NCBI GenBank assembly: GCA_017992605.1
Contig: JAGOOG010000021.1
Location: 1 to 34,355, forward strand
Origin: Deltaproteobacteria bacterium
GTDB taxonomy: Bacteria; Desulfobacterota; Desulfomonilia; UBA1062
Direction: 5' to 3'
Length of the DNA: 34,355 bases
The stretch's first letter is position 1. Each line of letters starts with the position of its first letter. Positions 5,098 through 27,255 of the stretch are shown here, one piece after another. The notes beneath the pieces are model-generated. The model made no database searches and was not told the DNA's origin. It was given only the letters and a program-made list of their open reading frames with translations. The position numbers were made by a program, and so were the translations under genes.

Positions 5098-5240
5098 AAT
5101 TGGGGTCGGAGTCGATTTATCTTGTCGAAAACGGGGTCGGAATCAGAAATTGGGGTCGGAGTCGATTTATTCCGGCAGCGTGAAAATTGGGTTCGGGGTC
5201 GATCTGATCGGGTGAAAATGGGTCGGTGTTGATTTACTCC
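5097..5240 (+). repeat. Tandem degenerate repeat array, core ttggggtcggagtcgatt
   Basis: Five copies fill the gap between convergent rfbA and the PIN gene: 5097-5120 and 5147-5170 (24 identical bases), and degenerate ones near 5128-5146, 5182-5204 and 5214-5236. The third and fifth are followed by the same tccggcag, so the unit has duplicated together with the last codons of the PIN gene. The array starts at the rfbA stop. In the opposite direction TAAATC from the repeat supplies the stop of the PIN gene. Further copies lie at 20665-20687 and 26182-26203. Confidence 0.85.
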
Positions 5241-6099: not shown

Positions 6100-6190
6100 T
6101 TGACAAGGCATGATGTCCACGCGTATCACGGTGCGCATGTAATCGTTGCTGTGTTTTCGCCCTCGCTTTGCAAGAGCGAGAATGTGGAGG
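6100..6190 (+). promoter_or_regulatory. Promoter and structured leader of the exported-protein operon
   Basis: TTGACA (6100-6105) and TATCAC (6124-6129) have an 18-base spacer. The leader contains a perfect hairpin CTCGCT-TTGCAAG-AGCGAG (6162-6180) only five bases before the GGAGG ribosome site at 6186-6190. The hairpin could modulate ribosome access. Confidence 0.4.
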
Positions 6191-6200
6191 TTGTCTTCAA

Positions 6201-9200
6201 ATGAACAACACGTGCCGAGTCTACCGGTGTGTCTCGTGGTCTGTCCTGAGGATCGCCCTTTTCTTCGTGCTCTGCCTGGAGGTCTTTGTCCTTGCATTCC
6301 TGTTTCTTCTGGCCGGGCAGGTCGCAGCCGTGGCCTGCCCGGTGGAACCTTTCCCGGAGATCGTCCTCGAGAAGAACACGCCCCTGGGGTGCGAGATGGT
6401 CCTCGATGCCGCGGTATTTCCGGGTGTCCAGGGGGATCCCGGGTGCGTCGAGTGGTACGGACCGTTCGATCCTGCCGATGACCCGGACCAGGCCGTCAAC
6501 CTGCCCGAGGGGACCCACACGGTCACCATGTTCACCTGCGACGGCGGGCGGCGATCGGACCCGCACGTCCTGCGTGTCACCGTGGAGCCCGCCTTCGACA
6601 TCCTCCCCATCCCCCTGCGGGGAAGGGCGGTCATCGCGTGGCCGGGCATGGACGGGGCGGAGCGGTACGCCGTCCATCGGGCGCGCGAAGACAGGCCGTG
6701 GAGCTTCGAGCTCGTCGCCGAGCTGCCACCATCGAGCTGCCTCTATGCCGACGCCGGCCTCGACGATGCCGCCTACCTCTACGTGGTGGGCGCACTGAAG
6801 GGCGGGCACTGGTCGTTTTCCCAGGTCAGGGGCGTGCACCCCTTCACCCTCTGGCCGAGGCTGAACTACCCGCCGGTCATCTGGTCGCCGCCCGTGCTCT
6901 CGGGCACCGTGGGCATCGAATACACCTACGACGTGCACGCCGCCGACCCGTACCGGGACAGTCTCACCCATGTGTTGGTCGGCCCCCCGCCGGGCATGGC
7001 CATCGATGCCGGCAGCGGGATCATCACGTGGAAGCCCGCATGGGTGGGCGACTACGAGATCGTGGTCAAGGCCAGGGACTGCAGGGGCCTGTATCATGCC
7101 CAGACCTTCATCGTCGAGGTGGACGAACTTCCCGCGCTGAACCGGGACCCTCTGGCCGACGCCGGCGGCCCGTACCGCTCCGTACCCGGGCAGGCCGTGA
7201 CCTTCGACGGCACGGGCTCGTCGGACCCGGACGGCGACCCGCTGTCGTTCCTCTGGCACTTCGGTGACGGTGCGAGCGGGACCGGCAGCACCCCGGTCCA
7301 CACGTACACGGCCCCGGGGACCTACGAGGTGACGCTTGCAGTCGCCGACGGCAGGGGAGGAGAGGGCACAGACACCGCCACGGTCACGGTGCAGGCATGC
7401 GTGCCGGCCACGGTCGACCTCTCGGCGAGCCCGGCCGCAGTGCTGCCCGGTGAGCCCTGCACCCTGGTCTGGTCCTCGCGGCACGCCGCGGCCGTGACCC
7501 TCGACCACGGCATCGGCGCGGTGGACGCCTCGGGGACCGTGACCGTGCACCCCGGCACCACCACCACCTACACCATCACCGCCACCGGTCCGTGCGGGTC
7601 TGCCACGGATTCGGTCACCGTGGTGGTCCACCAGCCGCCTTCCGTGGACATCACGGCAGACCCGGCAACCATTGTCGCCGGGCAGTCGTCCCTGCTGTCG
7701 TGGACATCGTCCCGCGCGGAGACGGTGACCATGGACCATGGCATCGGTGTCGTGCCGGCAGCCGGGTCCGTGACCGTCTCGCCCGCAGGGACCACCACCT
7801 ACACCGTCACGGCCGACGGGCCCGGGGGGGTCGCCACCGACGCGGCCACGGTCACGGTTCTCGATCCTCCCGCCGTGACGATCGCTGCCCAGCCGCCGGT
7901 CATCATCGAGGGGCGGGCCTCCACCCTGACCTGGGTGTCCGAACACGCATCGAGCGCCTCCCTGGACCACGGCATCGGCCAGGTGGCCCTGGCTGGCTCC
8001 CTGGAGGTGATGCCCCTGGCGACCACGACCTATACCCTCACGGTGCAGGGACCGGCGGGCACGGCCGCGGCCACAGCGACCGTCGAGGTGATCCCCAGGC
8101 CCACGGTGAGCATCGCGGCATCGCCCAATCCCGTCGATGCCGGGCAGACCTCCGTGCTGAGCTGGGCCTCTGCCCACGCACAGAGCGCCTCCATCGACCA
8201 GGGCATAGGAGTGGTGGACCCTTCGGGATCCCTCGAGGTGAGCCCTGCCGGGACCACCACCTACACCGTCACGGCGACCGGTCCGGGCGGCACGGCAACG
8301 GCGGGCGTGACCGTGGAGGTCAACCACCCCGAGCCGGCCAGGAAGACCTGCGCATACATAACCAACTGCGGCGGCGATGACGTGACGGTCGTCGATGTCG
8401 GCACGGACGAGGTCATCGGACGCGTCCAGACCGGCTACGGCCCGTACGGCGTGGACGTGAGCCCGGACGGGGACAGGGTCTACGTCACCACCGAGGAGGA
8501 GGGCATCGTGCTCATCGATGCGGCCACGAACACGGTAGTCGCGACCATACCGGCCAACGCGACCACGGTCGCGGTGAGCCCGGACGGCACGGTTCTCTAC
8601 GCGGTGTCGACGTGGGAGGAAAAGCTGAGTGCCATCGATGCGGAAACCCATGAACCGATCGGGTCCGTGGCCGTCGGTCCGTCTCCCCGGGGCATCGCCG
8701 TGAAACCCGACGGGACGAGGGTCTACGTCTCGAGCCTCGCGGACGGCACCGTCCGGGTCATCGATGCCGCGAGCCTCGAGGTGCTCGACACCGTGCAGGC
8801 GGCAGAACCCTGGGCGTCGGTGTGCGACCTGGAGGTGAGCCCGGACGGGGCCAGGCTGTATGCCATCTCCGATGCCTCGCTCATGCTCACGGTCATGGAC
8901 ACGGCCACCAACGAGGTCGTCGACTCGCGGTACTACCTCATAGAGCGAACCCCCGACGATGCGTACCTTGCCGTGAGCCCCGACGGGCAGCAGCTCCATG
9001 TGAGCTATCACCACTCCGGCGGGTCGGTCCTTGCCATCGACGCTGACACCCTGGAGGTCATCGGCACCGTCGAGACCGGGTACCCCTCCGACCTGTCCTT
9101 CGCACCGGACGGGTCGCGGCTGTATGTCCCCGATGTGGCGATGAACGGCGTGACCGTTGTCCAAGCCCTGTCTCATGGGATCGCGGCGTCCATCGAGGAC

Positions 9201-11012
9201 GCCTTCATGTCCCCCTACACGTGCGGGCACTTCGTCGCCGAGCACCGGGAGCTCATGGAAGGCCGGGTCACTGCCGACGGCCGTGGTGTCGAGGGTGTCG
9301 GCGTCACCCTGACAGGTGACCGCCTCACGAGGCGCTCTTCCACCGACAGCCAGGGCAGGTATTTCTTTTACGCCCCTGCCGGGAGCTATGCCCTGTCCTT
9401 CGCCAGGAACGGCCACATCTTCTCCCAGCAGACACTGAACGTGGAGGTGGTGGACCACGAGGTGCCGGTTGCCGATGTCGAGGTCCTGCTCGGCGTGAGG
9501 TTCCGGGCAGAGCCACAGGCCATAGCTCAAGGCGGGTCCGCTGCCCTGCACTGGGACACGCTCAGGGCAGAGGCTGTGTCCATCGACCAGGGCATCGGTG
9601 CGGTCGACGCGAGCGGGACCCGCGCTGTCTCCCCCCACGAGACCACGACCTACACCATCACGGCCCATGACGCCCAGGGCAGGACGGTCTCGGACCAGGT
9701 CACAGTCGTGGTCCACCAGCCGCCCCTGGTGAGCTTCACCGCGCAACCGGAAGGCATCGCCCAGGGCCAGTCCGCCGTGCTGAGCTGGTCATGTGCGAAC
9801 GCAGACACGCTCACCCTGCAGCCCATGGGCTGGACCGTGAGTCCCTCGGGGTCGTATACGGTCCGTCCGGAGGAGACCACCACCTACGGCATCGTGGCCA
9901 CGGGCCCGGGAGGAACCACAACCGCCTCTGCCACGGTGACCGTGCACCAGCCGCCTGCGGTGAGCATCTCGGCCGATCCCCTGACCATCTACGCGGGCCA
10001 GGCCGCGACCCTGTTCTGGACATCGACCGGTGCCGACCAGGTGACCCTGGACAACGGCATCGGCGCCCTAGCTTCGAGTGGGTCCCTGCCGGTGTCGCCG
10101 AACCGGACCACCACCTACACCGTTACCGCCACCGGGCCGGGCGGCACGGCCGCCGCAGCGGTGACGATCACGGTCAACAGCGTCATCACCCTGCACATCG
10201 ACGCGCCTGCTGCGAATTCCATCATCGACCGACCCGACGTCCTCGTGACGGGCACCGTGAGCCATGCCTACGGACACGAGACCGGGGTGAGTGTCAACGG
10301 CATCCCGGCCATGATCCACGGCAACCGGTTCGTGGCCAACCACGTGCCGCTCGAAGACGGCGAGAACGAGATCGCCGTGACGGCCCGGGACCTTGCCGGA
10401 AACTCGGCCGAGCTCCGGATCAGCGTCGTGTCGGAAGTGACCGGCCCTTACATCACGCTGACCATGGACGACAGTGCCGGGGTCTCGCCGTTCGATACCC
10501 TTCTGAGGGTGGAGTCATGTGCCGACATCATCGGCGTGGACCTGACGGACACGGGCTCGGGGGCTGTCGAATACACCGATGGAACCGAGACGCATGAAAG
10601 GTTCGTGCATGTTTCTGACGAAGGAGTCTACTTCATATCTGCAGAGGTGTCGGGCGGGGGAACGGTGCTCACCGACACCATCGGCATCGTCGTGCATGAC
10701 AGGAACGAACTGGATGGCCTCCTGAGGGGGAAATGGGAAGCCCTGCGCACGGCGCTCGGAAACGATGACATCGATGCCGCGGTGCGCGATGTTTCGGGCA
10801 GGACCAGACAGGTATACACGAACGCCTTCGGTTACCTGTCAGATGAACAGAGGAACACCCTGGTCACTGAACTGGGCGACATCAGGTTCATCAGGATGCA
10901 AGGCGGGTCTGTGGAGTATGACATTCAGATGGAACGGGCAGGGGTGCACCGCTCGTTCGCTCTGCTCTTCGAGATCGATGAGGACGGGCTGTGGAAGATC
11001 TCGCGTTTTTGA
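6201..11012 (+). CDS. Very large exported PKD / Ig-like / YVTN-propeller repeat protein
   Basis: The 1603-residue product starts at ATG 6201 (GGAGG ten bases upstream) with a long hydrophobic signal or anchor (residues about 15-44). Approximate order: fibronectin-like and cadherin-like N-terminal part (to 310); a PKD domain (313-398) with [18 protein letters not shown]; four Ig-like modules (399-710), each with a D[HQ]GIG signature and TTTYTxTxxGPxG; a YVTN beta-propeller of about six blades (714-990, SPDGxxVYV motifs); a carboxypeptidase-regulatory-like module (about 1016-1096); three more Ig-like modules (1100-1326); a Big/glucodextranase-like domain (1330-1413, [19 protein letters not shown]); and a 190-residue tail. 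It is probably surface-exposed or periplasmic and suited to adhesion or scaffolding. No enzyme domain is visible. The two downstream genes look co-transcribed. Confidence 0.88.
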
Positions 11013-14029: not shown

Positions 14030-14130
14030 AATGGCCCCCGAAGTGCAACTCGAAGGGGCGTACATGCTCCATGGAATGCAGTACGGGATCTGATCATTGC
14101 CATGACGTGTTCACTTATGAGGAGGTGCCC

Positions 14131-14832
14131 ATGCCCTGGCCAGCGCCGCTTGAAGTCCCCGGTGTTGCTTATCATGTCGTTCACAGTGGGAACGGTCAAC
14201 CGATCACCTTCTCCTGCGACGCGGACTACCGCGTGTACAGGACCCTGATCGCGACCTACTGCAGCGGGTACGCTCTGGATGTCTGGGCATACTGCCTGCT
14301 GCCGGACCGCGTGCACCTCGTGGCGGTGCCGGGGAGGATCGAAAGCGTCCGGAAGGCGGTCGCCGAGGCTCATCGATACTACAACAGGCACATCAACCTG
14401 GTGAAGAACTGGAGGGGGAAACTGTGGCAGGGGCGCCTCGCTCTGTACCCTGTCGCCGAAGATCACCTCATTCCAGCGGCGAGATACGTGGAGATGCTGC
14501 CCGTACACGCCGGGCTCTCGGAAAGTGCCCTCGACTATTCCTGGAGCAGCGCCAGGGCACACTGCCAGGGAGCGGATGACGAACTGGTCCGGGTGAAGCC
14601 GCTGCTCGACATGGCAGGTGACTGGCGAAAACTGCTCCAGGTCCGCCTCAGGAAGCCGGACGTGGACCGTCTCCGGCTCCACGAGAAAACGGGACGACCT
14701 TTGGGCAGCGAAGCGTTCGTCCATGAAATCGAGCGGGCACTGAGCCGGATCATCGGGCAACAGAAACCCGGGCGGAAACGGAAAGGGGATCAGCGCAAGC
14801 CAACCCCTGTTCCCCTGCGTATCCGGGCATAG
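14131..14832 (+). CDS. REP-associated tyrosine transposase-like protein (Y1/IS200 superfamily) with altered HUH motif
   Basis: The 233-residue protein has the RAYT layout. PGVAYHVVHSG (about 9-19) is the first strand. YCLLPDRVHLVAVP (about 54-67) stands where MPNHVHLxAVP is usual. EAHRYYNRHINLV contains the likely catalytic Tyr (83 or 84). Then come WRGKLWQGRLALYPV, AARYVEMLPVHAGL and YSWSSARAH. GAGGAGG precedes ATG 14131. The metal-binding His-x-His is Arg60-Val-His62: codon CGC at 14308 would be CAC with one base changed. Nicking activity is therefore doubtful. RAYTs usually mobilise or maintain short palindromic repeats, and this window contains several. The C-terminus is basic (KPGRKRKGDQRK). 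Confidence 0.85.
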   Translation: MPWPAPLEVPGVAYHVVHSGNGQPITFSCDADYRVYRTLIATYCSGYALDVWAYCLLPDRVHLVAVPGRIESVRKAVAEAHRYYNRHINLVKNWRGKLWQGRLALYPVAEDHLIPAARYVEMLPVHAGLSESALDYSWSSARAHCQGADDELVRVKPLLDMAGDWRKLLQVRLRKPDVDRLRLHEKTGRPLGSEAFVHEIERALSRIIGQQKPGRKRKGDQRKPTPVPLRIRA

Positions 14833-20608: not shown

Positions 20609-20624
20609 CGCCGAAGGCGCTGCG
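20609..20624 (-). repeat. Palindrome half of bipartite repeat element, copy 1
   Basis: The minus strand reads cgcagcgccttcggcg, identical over 16 bases to 26250-26265. It forms a CGCC-TTC-GGCG hairpin. It lies 41 bases beyond the core repeat at 20665-20687, in the same order as in the second copy. Confidence 0.7.
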
Positions 20625-20631
20625 AGGCCCT

Positions 20632-21180
20632 TCACCCATGCCTGGTAAGTCGGGGGCATGCAATAAAATCGACTCCGACCCCAATTACGGACCCCAATGA
20701 GGATTGTCTTTTTTTCACGAGCACCACTGCCTGGGCGGCGATGGCATCGCCGGCGCCGATCTCCCCGAGGCCCTCGTGGGTGCGGAACTTGACGGACACC
20801 GCAGAAGGGTCGATGCCCGCAGCCCCGGCGACAGAGACGACCATGTCCTGCCTGTACCCCGACAGCCTGGGCTTCTCGCAGATGCAGTTGATGTCGATGT
20901 TCACGATTTCGTAGTCAGGCACAACGGTCTCGAGGAGGCCCTTGAGCATGGCCAGGGAGTTCATGCCCTCGGTCTCTGCCGAGGTGTCGGGGTAGAGGAC
21001 GCCGATGTCGCCCCGGGCCAGGGCCCCGAGGATGGCGTCGCACACGGCGTGGATCACCACGTCGCCGTCGGAGTGTCCCAGCAGGCCCTTCTCGAAGGGT
21101 ACGTCGACCCCGCCGATGACAAGCGGCCTGCCCGGGACGAGCCGGTGTATGTCGAAGCCTATGCCGATCCTGAAAGGCAT
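20632..21180 (-). CDS. ispF: 2-C-methyl-D-erythritol 2,4-cyclodiphosphate synthase with repeat-derived tail
   Basis: IspF makes the cyclic diphosphate of the non-mevalonate isoprenoid pathway. Metal ligands are in GIGFDIHRL (residues 6-14) and GHSDGDVVIHA (about 35-45); CEKPRLSGY and EGLGEIGAGDAIAAQAVVLV follow. The protein is 182 residues, although the family usually ends near 158-160, just after this last segment. The final 22 codons come from a repeat element: TCA at 20700-20698 stands where other copies give the TAA stop. An A7 run shortly upstream could also cause slippage. ATG 21180 overlaps ispD by 22 bases. Confidence 0.95.
   Translation of the reverse strand: MPFRIGIGFDIHRLVPGRPLVIGGVDVPFEKGLLGHSDGDVVIHAVCDAILGALARGDIGVLYPDTSAETEGMNSLAMLKGLLETVVPDYEIVNIDINCICEKPRLSGYRQDMVVSVAGAAGIDPSAVSVKFRTHEGLGEIGAGDAIAAQAVVLVKKRQSSLGSVIGVGVDFIACPRLTRHG
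20665..20687 (-). repeat. Core repeat copy at the 3' end of ispF
   Basis: The minus strand carries the core ttggggtcggagtcgatt with the same flanks as at 26182-26203. A partial copy (cattggggtcc) precedes it at 20690-20700. Both are translated as part of the ispF frame. Confidence 0.85.
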
Positions 21181-24268: not shown

Positions 24269-24284
24269 TGCGATAAACTCTTTG

Positions 24285-26183
24285 ATGGGCAACCAGGACA
24301 CCACCATTGCGGGCGGACTCAGGGCATTCACGCTCTACAACCGCGCCAAGAAGGATTTCATGTACAAATGCGATCCGGTGGGCGCCCGGGTCGTGCTCGA
24401 GTTCCTCCCGCTGCTCCTCCACATCAACCACCCCTCCCTGCCGGGACATATCAGTGGCGACGACTGCCCGTGCGGCGTCAAGCTCATGGACTGGCCCGCC
24501 AAGACCCTCAAGGAGGTCGGTTCGTTCTTCTCCTCCCGGATGAAGATCGGGAACGTCCACGACTACCTGCCGCGGGAACACGAGATCGAGGGCCTCTTCA
24601 CCATCGGATCCGTGGGCAGCCTCGCCCAGACGAGGGACTCCGACTACGACATCTGGGTGGTGGTCGACTCGAGGAAGGTGAGTCCCGTGCGGCTCAAGGT
24701 GCTGGACAGGAAACTGAAGCTGCTCAAGCGCTGGATCAGCGGCAAGTTCGTGCTGGCCATCCACTTCTTCCTCATGGACCTCCAGGACATCCGGACGAAC
24801 ACCTTCGGCGACGTGTCCCATGAGGGGTCGGGGTCGGCACTGAAGAGCATCCTCAAGGAGGAGTTCTACCGCACCATGACCCTCATCGAGGGGCGGGTTC
24901 CGCTGTGGTGGGTCGTGCCTCCCGGCACCGGGGCCGAGGGCTATGAGGAGCTGCGCAGGGCCCTCCAGGCCAGGTCGAACGGGGGCTCCGAAGAGTTCAT
25001 CGACATGGGCGACATCGAGGCCATCCCGGAACAGGAGCTGCTGGGTGCTGCCTTGTGGCAGATGCACAAGGCCCTGGACGACCCCCTCAAGTCGGTCCTC
25101 AAGATGGCCCTGGTGGCAAGCTACCTGGACACGCCGGACCAGGGCAGGCTCCTGTGCAACATGCTCAAGAGGAACGTGCTCGATGCCAGCAGGGGCGGGA
25201 TCGTGGACCCCTACTACCACATCCTGCGCCGCGTGGAAGACTTCTACGGGAGCCGGGGGGACGACCGGACCGTGGATCTCCTGAGGAAGTGCTTCTATCT
25301 CAAGGTGAACCCCTCCATACGGGGGTCCGACCTGGTCAGGATCGAGCGGAACGACAAGGCTACCATCATGGTGGACATCGTGAAATCCTGGGGGTGGTCG
25401 CTGAAGGCCGTCTCCGAGCTGAACGGATTTTCCGAGTGGGGAGTTGACCTGTACCGCAAATTCGGAGACGACATCCACTCCTTTCTCAAGCTGACCACGA
25501 TCCAGCTCATCCGGAGGGCCAAGGCGTACATGATCCACTCCGCCCTGGACGAGGACGTCGAGGTGGAGATCCTCAGGCGCAGGATCGAGGCCTTCTACGT
25601 CTCGAAGGACGGCAAGGTCGAGTCCGAGAAGCGGGTGAAGAAGAGGGAGCCGGCCTACCGGGACCTCTACTTCGCCTACCGGAGAGAGAGCTGGAGCATC
25701 TACGAGCAGATGCCCGAACTGAAGACGGACAGGCCCATCATGGAGTCTGCCAGGGTGGCCAGGATACTCGCGTGGCTCGTGTACAACAAGAGGTTCGACG
25801 CGTCCACGGCCTTCCACATGATCCCGAACACGTCCCGGGTCGTCCTGTCCGATATCCAGGCCCTCCTGTGGAAGCTGGGAAAGCTCATTCCGGATGCCGG
25901 CTCCATCGGGCTGGACCGGCTGTCCCTCATGGAAGACAAGTACGCCAGGTTCGTGGTGGTCATCGGCAACATGGAGTGCCCAGACAACCAGCACGCCATA
26001 CAGGAAGTGGACGTGATTTTCCTGAACACCTGGAACGAGCTCTTCTGCGTCTCCATGAGACCCGAGCAGCTCGGCGCCTGGATGGCCCGGATGAAGAGGC
26101 ACTCCACCAGGGTCACGACCTGGCTGCCCAAGGAAGGCAACACCAGGGTCCTGAACCAGGCGCTCGTGTCGCTGACCTCCTAA
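24285..26183 (+). CDS. Class I (CyaA-type) adenylate cyclase-like protein
   Basis: The 632-residue protein matches the catalytic half of enterobacterial CyaA. GSVGSLAQTRDSDYDIWVVV (about 110-129) is the nucleotidyltransferase motif Gly-Ser...Asp-x-Asp, and FFLMDLQDIRTNTFG plus LKEEFYRTMTLIEGRVPLWWVVP follow as in CyaA. These enzymes make cAMP from ATP in the cytoplasm. It is shorter than E. coli CyaA (848 residues); the glucose-responsive C-terminal half is not recognisable. The TTG codon before ATG 24285 is an alternative start; no strong ribosome site is visible. The TAA stop overlaps a repeat copy. Confidence 0.85.
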   Translation: MGNQDTTIAGGLRAFTLYNRAKKDFMYKCDPVGARVVLEFLPLLLHINHPSLPGHISGDDCPCGVKLMDWPAKTLKEVGSFFSSRMKIGNVHDYLPREHEIEGLFTIGSVGSLAQTRDSDYDIWVVVDSRKVSPVRLKVLDRKLKLLKRWISGKFVLAIHFFLMDLQDIRTNTFGDVSHEGSGSALKSILKEEFYRTMTLIEGRVPLWWVVPPGTGAEGYEELRRALQARSNGGSEEFIDMGDIEAIPEQELLGAALWQMHKALDDPLKSVLKMALVASYLDTPDQGRLLCNMLKRNVLDASRGGIVDPYYHILRRVEDFYGSRGDDRTVDLLRKCFYLKVNPSIRGSDLVRIERNDKATIMVDIVKSWGWSLKAVSELNGFSEWGVDLYRKFGDDIHSFLKLTTIQLIRRAKAYMIHSALDEDVEVEILRRRIEAFYVSKDGKVESEKRVKKREPAYRDLYFAYRRESWSIYEQMPELKTDRPIMESARVARILAWLVYNKRFDASTAFHMIPNTSRVVLSDIQALLWKLGKLIPDAGSIGLDRLSLMEDKYARFVVVIGNMECPDNQHAIQEVDVIFLNTWNELFCVSMRPEQLGAWMARMKRHSTRVTTWLPKEGNTRVLNQALVSLTS

Positions 26184-26267
26184 TTGGGGTCGGAGTCGAT
26201 TTTCTTCACGTACGGTTCCCTCGATCACCCGAACAGGGCCGAAGAGCATCGCAGCGCCTTCGGCGCT
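26182..26267 (+). repeat. Bipartite repeat element, copy 2
   Basis: The core repeat (26182-26203) begins on the stop codon of the cyclase gene. About 47 bases later comes the palindrome AGCGCC-TTC-GGCGCT (26253-26267) inside a 16-base segment identical to copy 1 at 20609-20624. Core and palindrome are in the same order and at similar spacing in both copies. Confidence 0.75.
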
Positions 26268-26269
26268 GG

Positions 26270-26326
26270 CCTGCCTGATCGATGCACCTCGTCGAAAAAC
26301 CTGTCGAGATGCATCAATCAGACAGG
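26270..26326 (-). repeat. Long 22-bp inverted repeat
   Basis: Arms 26270-26291 and 26305-26326 are complementary over 22 positions except three, with a 13-base loop. All three differences are C on the left arm where the other arm predicts T, so minus-strand RNA could pair fully with three G-U wobbles while plus-strand RNA could not. Confidence 0.6.
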
Positions 26327-26388
26327 TCAATGTTCTCATTATCATTGACTCTTCTCATTATTGCCGATACACATTTTTCAGGCAGAGC

Positions 26389-27255
26389 ATGAGTATGGCG
26401 AATAAGGGATCATCGAAGCAGAGCATGGAAAACCGGCTTGCCCTCGGCATGTGCCAGATCAGCCAGGGCTACGACATCGAGGCGAACATCGACAGGGCCT
26501 GCGCACTGCTCGGCCGCGCCGCTGAGATGGGGGCGAAGATAGCCTGCTTGCCCGAGATGTTCACCACCCCGTACGAACCGATGTCGATCCGCAAGGCTGC
26601 GCCGTACAGCGAGTCGGCCCTCGGGAGGCTCCAGGACCTTGCCAGGGACAGGGGCATGTTCATCGTCGCAGGATCCATGCCCTGGCCTTCCGGGCAGAAG
26701 CGCCTCTTCAACCGGGCTCTCGTGATCGATCCCTCGGGCGCGGTCGTCCACCGTCACGACAAGATCCACCTCTTCGACTGCACGCCGCCCGGCGGGCCGA
26801 AGGTGGTGGAGTCGGACACCATCGTGCCCGGCGACACCCTGGGGGATTTCGCAACGCCGTGGGGGAAGGCGGCGGTCATCGTCTGCTACGACATACGATT
26901 CACCCCGCTGACGCAGATCCTGGCGGACAGGGATGTCAGGCTCCTCTTCGTGCCGGCGGCGTTCGCCCATGCCACCGGGAAGGCCCACTGGGAGATGCTC
27001 GTGAGGCTCAGGGCCGTCGAGCTCCAGGCCTTTGTCGCCGGGGTGCAGCCCGCGAACAACCCGCAGCTCGGCTACGTGCCCTGGGGTCATTCCATCGTGG
27101 CCTCCCCCTGGGGCGATGTCCTCGTGGACGCCGGCATGGAAGAGACCGTGGAGGTCGTTCAGATCGATACCGGCGAAGTGGACGCCATCAGAACCAGGTT
27201 TCCCCTGCGCGCACACCGTAGGGACGACCTCTACGAGACGCGCTGGAAGGGTTGA
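26389..27255 (+). CDS. Carbon-nitrogen hydrolase, omega-amidase-like
   Basis: The 288-residue nitrilase-superfamily enzyme shows the Glu-Lys-Cys triad: Glu in ACLPEMFTTPY (about 56), Lys in RHDKIHLFDC (about 125), and Cys in VIVCYDIRF (about 166). These motifs and length match NIT2/YafV-type omega-amidases, which hydrolyse alpha-ketoglutaramate or alpha-ketosuccinamate. The N-terminus is uncertain: ATG 26389 gives 12 extra residues before a second ATG at 26425, and neither has a strong ribosome site. It is three bases from the MlaF-like gene and is probably co-expressed. Confidence 0.88.
   Translation: MSMANKGSSKQSMENRLALGMCQISQGYDIEANIDRACALLGRAAEMGAKIACLPEMFTTPYEPMSIRKAAPYSESALGRLQDLARDRGMFIVAGSMPWPSGQKRLFNRALVIDPSGAVVHRHDKIHLFDCTPPGGPKVVESDTIVPGDTLGDFATPWGKAAVIVCYDIRFTPLTQILADRDVRLLFVPAAFAHATGKAHWEMLVRLRAVELQAFVAGVQPANNPQLGYVPWGHSIVASPWGDVLVDAGMEETVEVVQIDTGEVDAIRTRFPLRAHRRDDLYETRWKG

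Follow-up and report, generated by a model that had tools for sequence, protein, structure and literature searches.

The window analyzed here is a 34,355-nt stretch of DNA from a Deltaproteobacteria bacterium (assembly GCA_017992605.1, contig JAGOOG010000021.1). It includes genes for a class I adenylate cyclase (cya), a carbon–nitrogen hydrolase and IspF, a Y1_Tnp/RAYT gene, and several short repeats (Table 1). A promoter-like motif, TTGAC-N17-GATA, lies upstream of the carbon–nitrogen hydrolase gene and is common to three congeners.

Table 1. Positions of genes and repeat features in the window
Feature	Position	Strand	Remarks
Tandem core cluster	5098–5240	+	Near-perfect copies at 5102 and 5152; degenerate copies at 5189 and 5219
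Y1_Tnp/RAYT gene	14071–14832	+	Not core-flanked; does not group with the core-flanked RAYTs
Partial relative of the hairpin element	20609–20640	−	Upstream motif and hairpin 1, no hairpin 2; not matched by model R1
ispF	20632–21180	−	3' end (20632–20706) covers most of the minus copy
Extra C-terminal tail of IspF, QSSLGSVIGVGVDFIACPRLTRHG	codons 20706–20635	−	24 residues, largely from core and spacer
Second core copy, putative TIR	20665–20687	−	Within the ispF 3' end
Partial TIR head, CATTGGGGTC	20690–20699	−	Directly upstream of the full core; "stutter" unit
Core shared by both loci, AATTGGGGTCGGAGTCGATTTT	26182–26203 and 20686–20665	+ and −	22 nt; one extra T common to both 5' sides
16-mer shared by both loci (hairpin segment), CGCAGCGCCTTCGGCG	26250–26265 and 20624–20609	+ and −	
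cya	24282–26183	+	Class I adenylate cyclase
Core, putative TIRYT-type TIR	26181–26203	+	Outer end at 26181; TAA at 26181–26183 is the cya stop codon
Spacer, probably brought in with the core	26204–26231	+	Missing from the G003 ortholog; no inverted TIR remnant detectable
Two-hairpin element	26247–26328	+	Model R1, 87 bits; hairpin 1, 26252–26268; hairpin 2, 26269–26327
Carbon–nitrogen hydrolase gene	26389–27255	+	

An earlier note on this DNA had described two opposite-strand loci as copies of one bipartite non-coding element consisting of the core and the 16-mer. One locus proves to be at the end of cya and the other at the end of ispF. The presence of both segments in the same order at the two loci is borne out, with a gap between core and 16-mer of 46 nt at the plus locus and 40–41 nt at the minus locus. 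The window contains five core-like sites (0.14 expected), and a shared 16-mer is found in none of 20,000 pairs of random 100-nt segments, which places the two-locus match above chance. The term non-coding does not suit most of the minus copy, which is translated as the ispF 3' end, and the plus copy holds the cya stop codon. The sequence between the segments, said to be mostly different, is so for the 24–29 nt from the core to the hairpin region, where similarity does not exceed that of shuffles (p = 0.20) and a shared spacer is rejected; the 16–17 nt directly before the hairpin are, in contrast, alike (p = 0.003).

The core family and its transposases

RAYT-like genes with flanking terminal inverted repeats (TIRs) bearing the motif GGGGWSAS have been termed TIRYTs, and their TIRs are also dispersed as dimers and clusters (Di Nocera et al., 2013; PMC3733652). 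In the 2.7-Mb assembly searched, an 18-nt core pattern has 31 exact copies, against none for the reversed-pattern control, and 49 copies match a 20-nt pattern when as many as three mismatches are allowed. As in a dispersed TIRYT-type family, there are 53 copies with 16 head-to-head pairs and several clusters; among 32 close neighbour pairs of cores, 16 are head-to-head, 16 tandem and none tail-to-tail. Two forms of the core are distinguished, the majority form AAATGGGGTCAGAGTCGATTTT and the window form AATTGGGGTCGGAGTCGATTT, a close relative of which is on contig C44. The GGGGWSAS head is fitted by the major subfamily (GGGGTCAG), whereas both window copies have GGGGTCGG, a one-base departure from that motif. 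Most genomic copies are inverted pairs, and both window copies (at cya and ispF) are solo ends; the REPIN arrangement, in which two inverted units form a hairpin, is thus seen for most genomic copies but not for these two. Best alignments for a decayed second TIR inside the two spacers are no better than those of shuffles (p = 0.26 and 0.54).

The four congeners together have a single core pair. At the sites of the TIR pairs on C36 and C30, congeners are without the core and their intergenic DNA is too diverged to place boundaries; insertion boundaries and target duplications are readable only roughly, at cya. The paired element has no match in plasmid and phage collections, and a literature search by sequence finds no paper with GGGGTCAGAGTC in the sense of a repeat. 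The core-bearing contigs of this genome (G000) are C2, C4, C12, C30, C34, C36, C37, C44 and C47. All cores are either on small contigs or, where the contig is large, close to its end (within the initial 27 kb of C12 and of C34 and the initial 7 kb of C2), which would fit one genomic region or breaks of the assembly at cores.

Outside this genome, the 18-nt core occurs, among the matches listed, mainly in Beta- and Gammaproteobacteria (contigs of species genomes). A Y1_Tnp gene homologous to the RAYTs of this genome is present in 10 of 114 core loci fetched among those matches, with inward-pointing cores on both sides in nine and on one side only in the tenth. The 10 core-flanked transposases group together in a tree (81/85 support). 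Y1_Tnp is found by Pfam in all nine core-flanked proteins scanned, and no HTH is found in them at E ≤ 0.1, a search that a diverged HTH could escape. One core-flanked protein scores 77.7 bits against the NCBIfam model for REP-associated tyrosine transposases, just below the cut-off of 80 bits. RAYTs of family members carry other heads (GGGGACAGATTTATTTT, GGGGACACCATA and GGGGTCAGGTCTTG). In three Oxalobacteraceae/Burkholderiales genomes (L107, L087 and L145), a core-flanked RAYT occupies a corresponding position, upstream of a large gene common to all three, which reads like that for the glutamate synthase large subunit; this shared position suggests vertical retention.

The inward-facing core pairs around RAYT genes in other bacteria indicate that the core is a TIRYT-type TIR of the GGGGWSAS class. 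Like TIRYT/TIRtron TIRs, it consists of inverted repeats around Y1 tyrosine transposase genes, has a GGGG[AT][CG]A[CG] head in its major form, and is dispersed as moderately abundant dimers and clusters (PMC3733652). Unlike them, it has no cognate TIRYT in this assembly, its window copies are solo with a deviating head, and its transposases are without an HTH at the Pfam threshold above, whereas 20 of the 26 described TIRYTs belong to subclass 2.1, which has a C-terminal HTH-like domain, and six to other subclasses (Quentin et al., 2018; PMC6006769). The core also resembles GTAG REPs, REPINs and BIMEs in its short inverted pairs, which are dispersed and linked to transposases of the RAYT family, but it has no GTAG/GTGG tag, and in DNA folding a single window-type core forms no stable hairpin (−1.4 kcal/mol), compared with −26.2 kcal/mol (z −11.9) for a core pair. 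The repeat class is already known, and the core is a new member of it, a widespread but little-described repeat that can now be tied to its transposase clade.

Inverted core copies around a Y1 (HuH) transposase gene are seen in other bacteria and not within this genome, where none of the three Y1_Tnp genes of the assembly is core-flanked. In the tree, the RAYT-like genes of this genome (in the window and on C30) are outside the core clade. The window RAYT has a weak Y1_Tnp score (25 bits), a long tree branch and no flanking inverted repeats. As no RAYT in the assembly carries the core or groups with core-flanked RAYTs, the core copies look, by sequence, like non-autonomous orphans, and the case for core mobility in this genome is indirect.

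The two-hairpin element

The 16-mer belongs to a different element, one with two hairpins, of which it forms the first stem. BLAST searches with the cya flank reveal relatives at other places in this genome and also in the congeners G003 and G004, and in an alignment of nine copies a 7-bp hairpin precedes a stem of 23 pairs. Compensatory changes are found in 15 of the 30 pairs, a level reached in none of 500 shuffles and collapsing in slid controls. The covariance model has 11 strong matches (at least 68 bits), all within the genus, in three of its five genomes, and no strong match in other genera of the family, restricting the element to the genus among 24 family genomes. Weaker matches, which are numerous in G001, may simply be long hairpins of the ordinary kind. 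In G003, L247:519–674 carries three consecutive copies of hairpin 1 (CTGCAGTGCCTTCGGCACT), followed by a single long stem.

Most strong copies begin 14–131 nt past a same-strand stop codon. Stems and a post-stop position, seen in most copies, are traits of intrinsic (rho-independent) terminators, which likewise have a GC-rich hairpin soon after the stop codon. Unlike these, the element has two coupled hairpins, a conserved first stem and a genus-restricted sequence, and no T run follows the window copy. Rfam gives no match to the hairpin family above the gathering score and finds only a tRNA in the window. This old element most likely marks or protects transcript 3' ends in a terminator-like manner.

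The earlier note had held that frequent occurrence of the 16-mer without the core would speak against one bipartite element, and this is largely what is found. The 16-mer (15 of 16 bases searched) is also present at C47:22796, where it closely follows the stop of a gene and has no core, and four of the five strong hairpin copies in this genome have no core upstream. Conversely, of the about 50 genomic cores, none other than the two in the window has the hairpin downstream.

Comparison with congeners separates the two motifs at cya. In G003, the cya stop codon is TGA, and the hairpin element follows 17 nt later, with GCAGCGCCTTCGGCGCTGGCCT and the long stem present and the core absent. Compared with G003, our genome has about 50 bp (core plus spacer) inserted between cya and the hairpin element, and the cya stop codon is the TAA of TAATTGGGG, supplied by the insertion. 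The hairpin without the core in G003 means, most simply, that the hairpin is older than the core at this site.

At ispF, G004, G001 and G002 have neither core nor hairpin, and the G003 contig ends there. The IspF tail is absent in these three congeners, in which the protein ends in LLKRR, LLKTR or LLEEVA. Because the core encodes most of the tail, the minus copy is partly coding, and the insertion has visibly altered how one protein, IspF, ends. GTAG REPs are likewise able to provide genes with stop codons or with coding sequence (PMC3733652). The present loci are a clean example: REP-like insertion gave one gene its stop codon and another a new C-terminal tail.

Origin of the two loci

Each locus carries, at the end of a gene, one copy of a transposon-end repeat that is common in bacteria, and the two do not represent one two-part element. 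Taken as a whole, the explanation with by far the highest probability is that the core is the TIR of a RAYT/TIRYT-type (HuH, Y1) transposon family, present here as orphan non-autonomous copies, and that both window copies were inserted at gene 3' ends, one beside the older hairpin element and the other beside its partial relative. The apparent bipartite element would then very probably be a juxtaposition of the core with a separate, older hairpin, and two repeat families that look like one are thereby separated. The suggestion of a mobile, non-autonomous or REP-like element is upheld for the core, with its about 50 copies, mostly in inverted pairs and clusters, and its flanking of transposase genes elsewhere; it does not extend to the palindrome as the other end, given the core-less copies at C47, at four of the five strong sites and at cya of G003.

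A TIRYT acting on single-stranded DNA most likely spread the ends, as inverted core pairs would fold into long hairpins in such DNA. At cya, a core would have entered at the stop codon, immediately before the older two-hairpin 3' element; at ispF, another would have entered the stop region, adjoining the partial relative of the hairpin. The cognate transposase has probably been lost or was not assembled. Several observations count against this explanation. This genome has no core-flanked RAYT among those found, the intergenic DNA of congeners is too diverged to show insertion boundaries other than roughly at cya, and the window head differs by one base from the published motif. Both window copies are solo, with no decayed second end detectable, and two of about 50 cores lying 41–46 nt upstream of one rare hairpin are more than chance would give.

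The last of these observations would be accounted for if TIRYT insertion were drawn to hairpins at gene 3' ends, so that target choice rather than chance placed the cores. This possibility, tentative at about one chance in a few, refines the TIR insertion explanation and does not exclude it. It is consistent with a hairpin family of about six copies having two cores at that distance, with the position of both window copies at stop codons, and with the action of RAYT-type enzymes on hairpins in single-stranded DNA (PMC6006769); on the other side, there are two cases, and the other cores are not near the hairpin family.

Duplication of one composite mobile element (core, spacer and hairpin) as a unit between the two sites is improbable. 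The common order, the similar spacing, the alike 16 nt before the hairpin and a BLAST match across the whole 79–85 nt at 77% would fit such an event, but the spacer is no more alike than shuffles, cores and strong hairpins elsewhere in this genome occur almost entirely apart, as described above, and the hairpin with its second stem but without the core at cya of G003 largely refutes it. That the core serves regulatory protein binding or termination and has nothing to do with transposition, as its position at two gene ends might suggest, is the least credible proposal, in view of cores facing inward around transposase genes in several genera, patchy presence in the genus, partial copies and inverted pairs.

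With the core read as a TIR, its outer ends show a further feature. A partial head, GGGGTC, is found just outside the core at 7 of 46 cores in this genome and 19 of 197 elsewhere. The 8 nt preceding the partial GGGGTC and those preceding the full head are identical at 5.9 of 8 positions here (control 4.1) and 6.6 of 8 elsewhere (control 3.5). The duplicated flanks are locus-specific and are seen at the minus locus of the window (Table 1), at L087, at L145 and at others. Judged from their letters, these units resemble traces left when DNA is cut and rejoined near GGGGTC; slippage during replication could yield them as well. A locus-specific inverted duplication of the outer flanks of pairs is not significant in this genome (p = 0.1), and the signal for it in a mixed set from other species may reflect subfamilies.

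Two features may be new: the hairpin family, and the outer-end units in which a short stretch of flank plus GGGGTC is duplicated in tandem. A bolder combination, which we regard as doubtful as a whole, is that TIR outer ends grow by such tandem duplications, which would mark the site at which the transposase cuts and rejoins, that new ends prefer gene 3' ends beside hairpins and thereby rewrite stop codons and C-termini, and that the two-hairpin family constitutes a genus-specific RNA element of 3' ends that has not been described before. The outer-end duplications could reveal the TIRYT cut site, which is not worked out for the class in the literature cited here. Elsewhere in the window, a 1614-aa open frame at 6168–11012 has internal repeats at 231-nt (77-codon) spacing.
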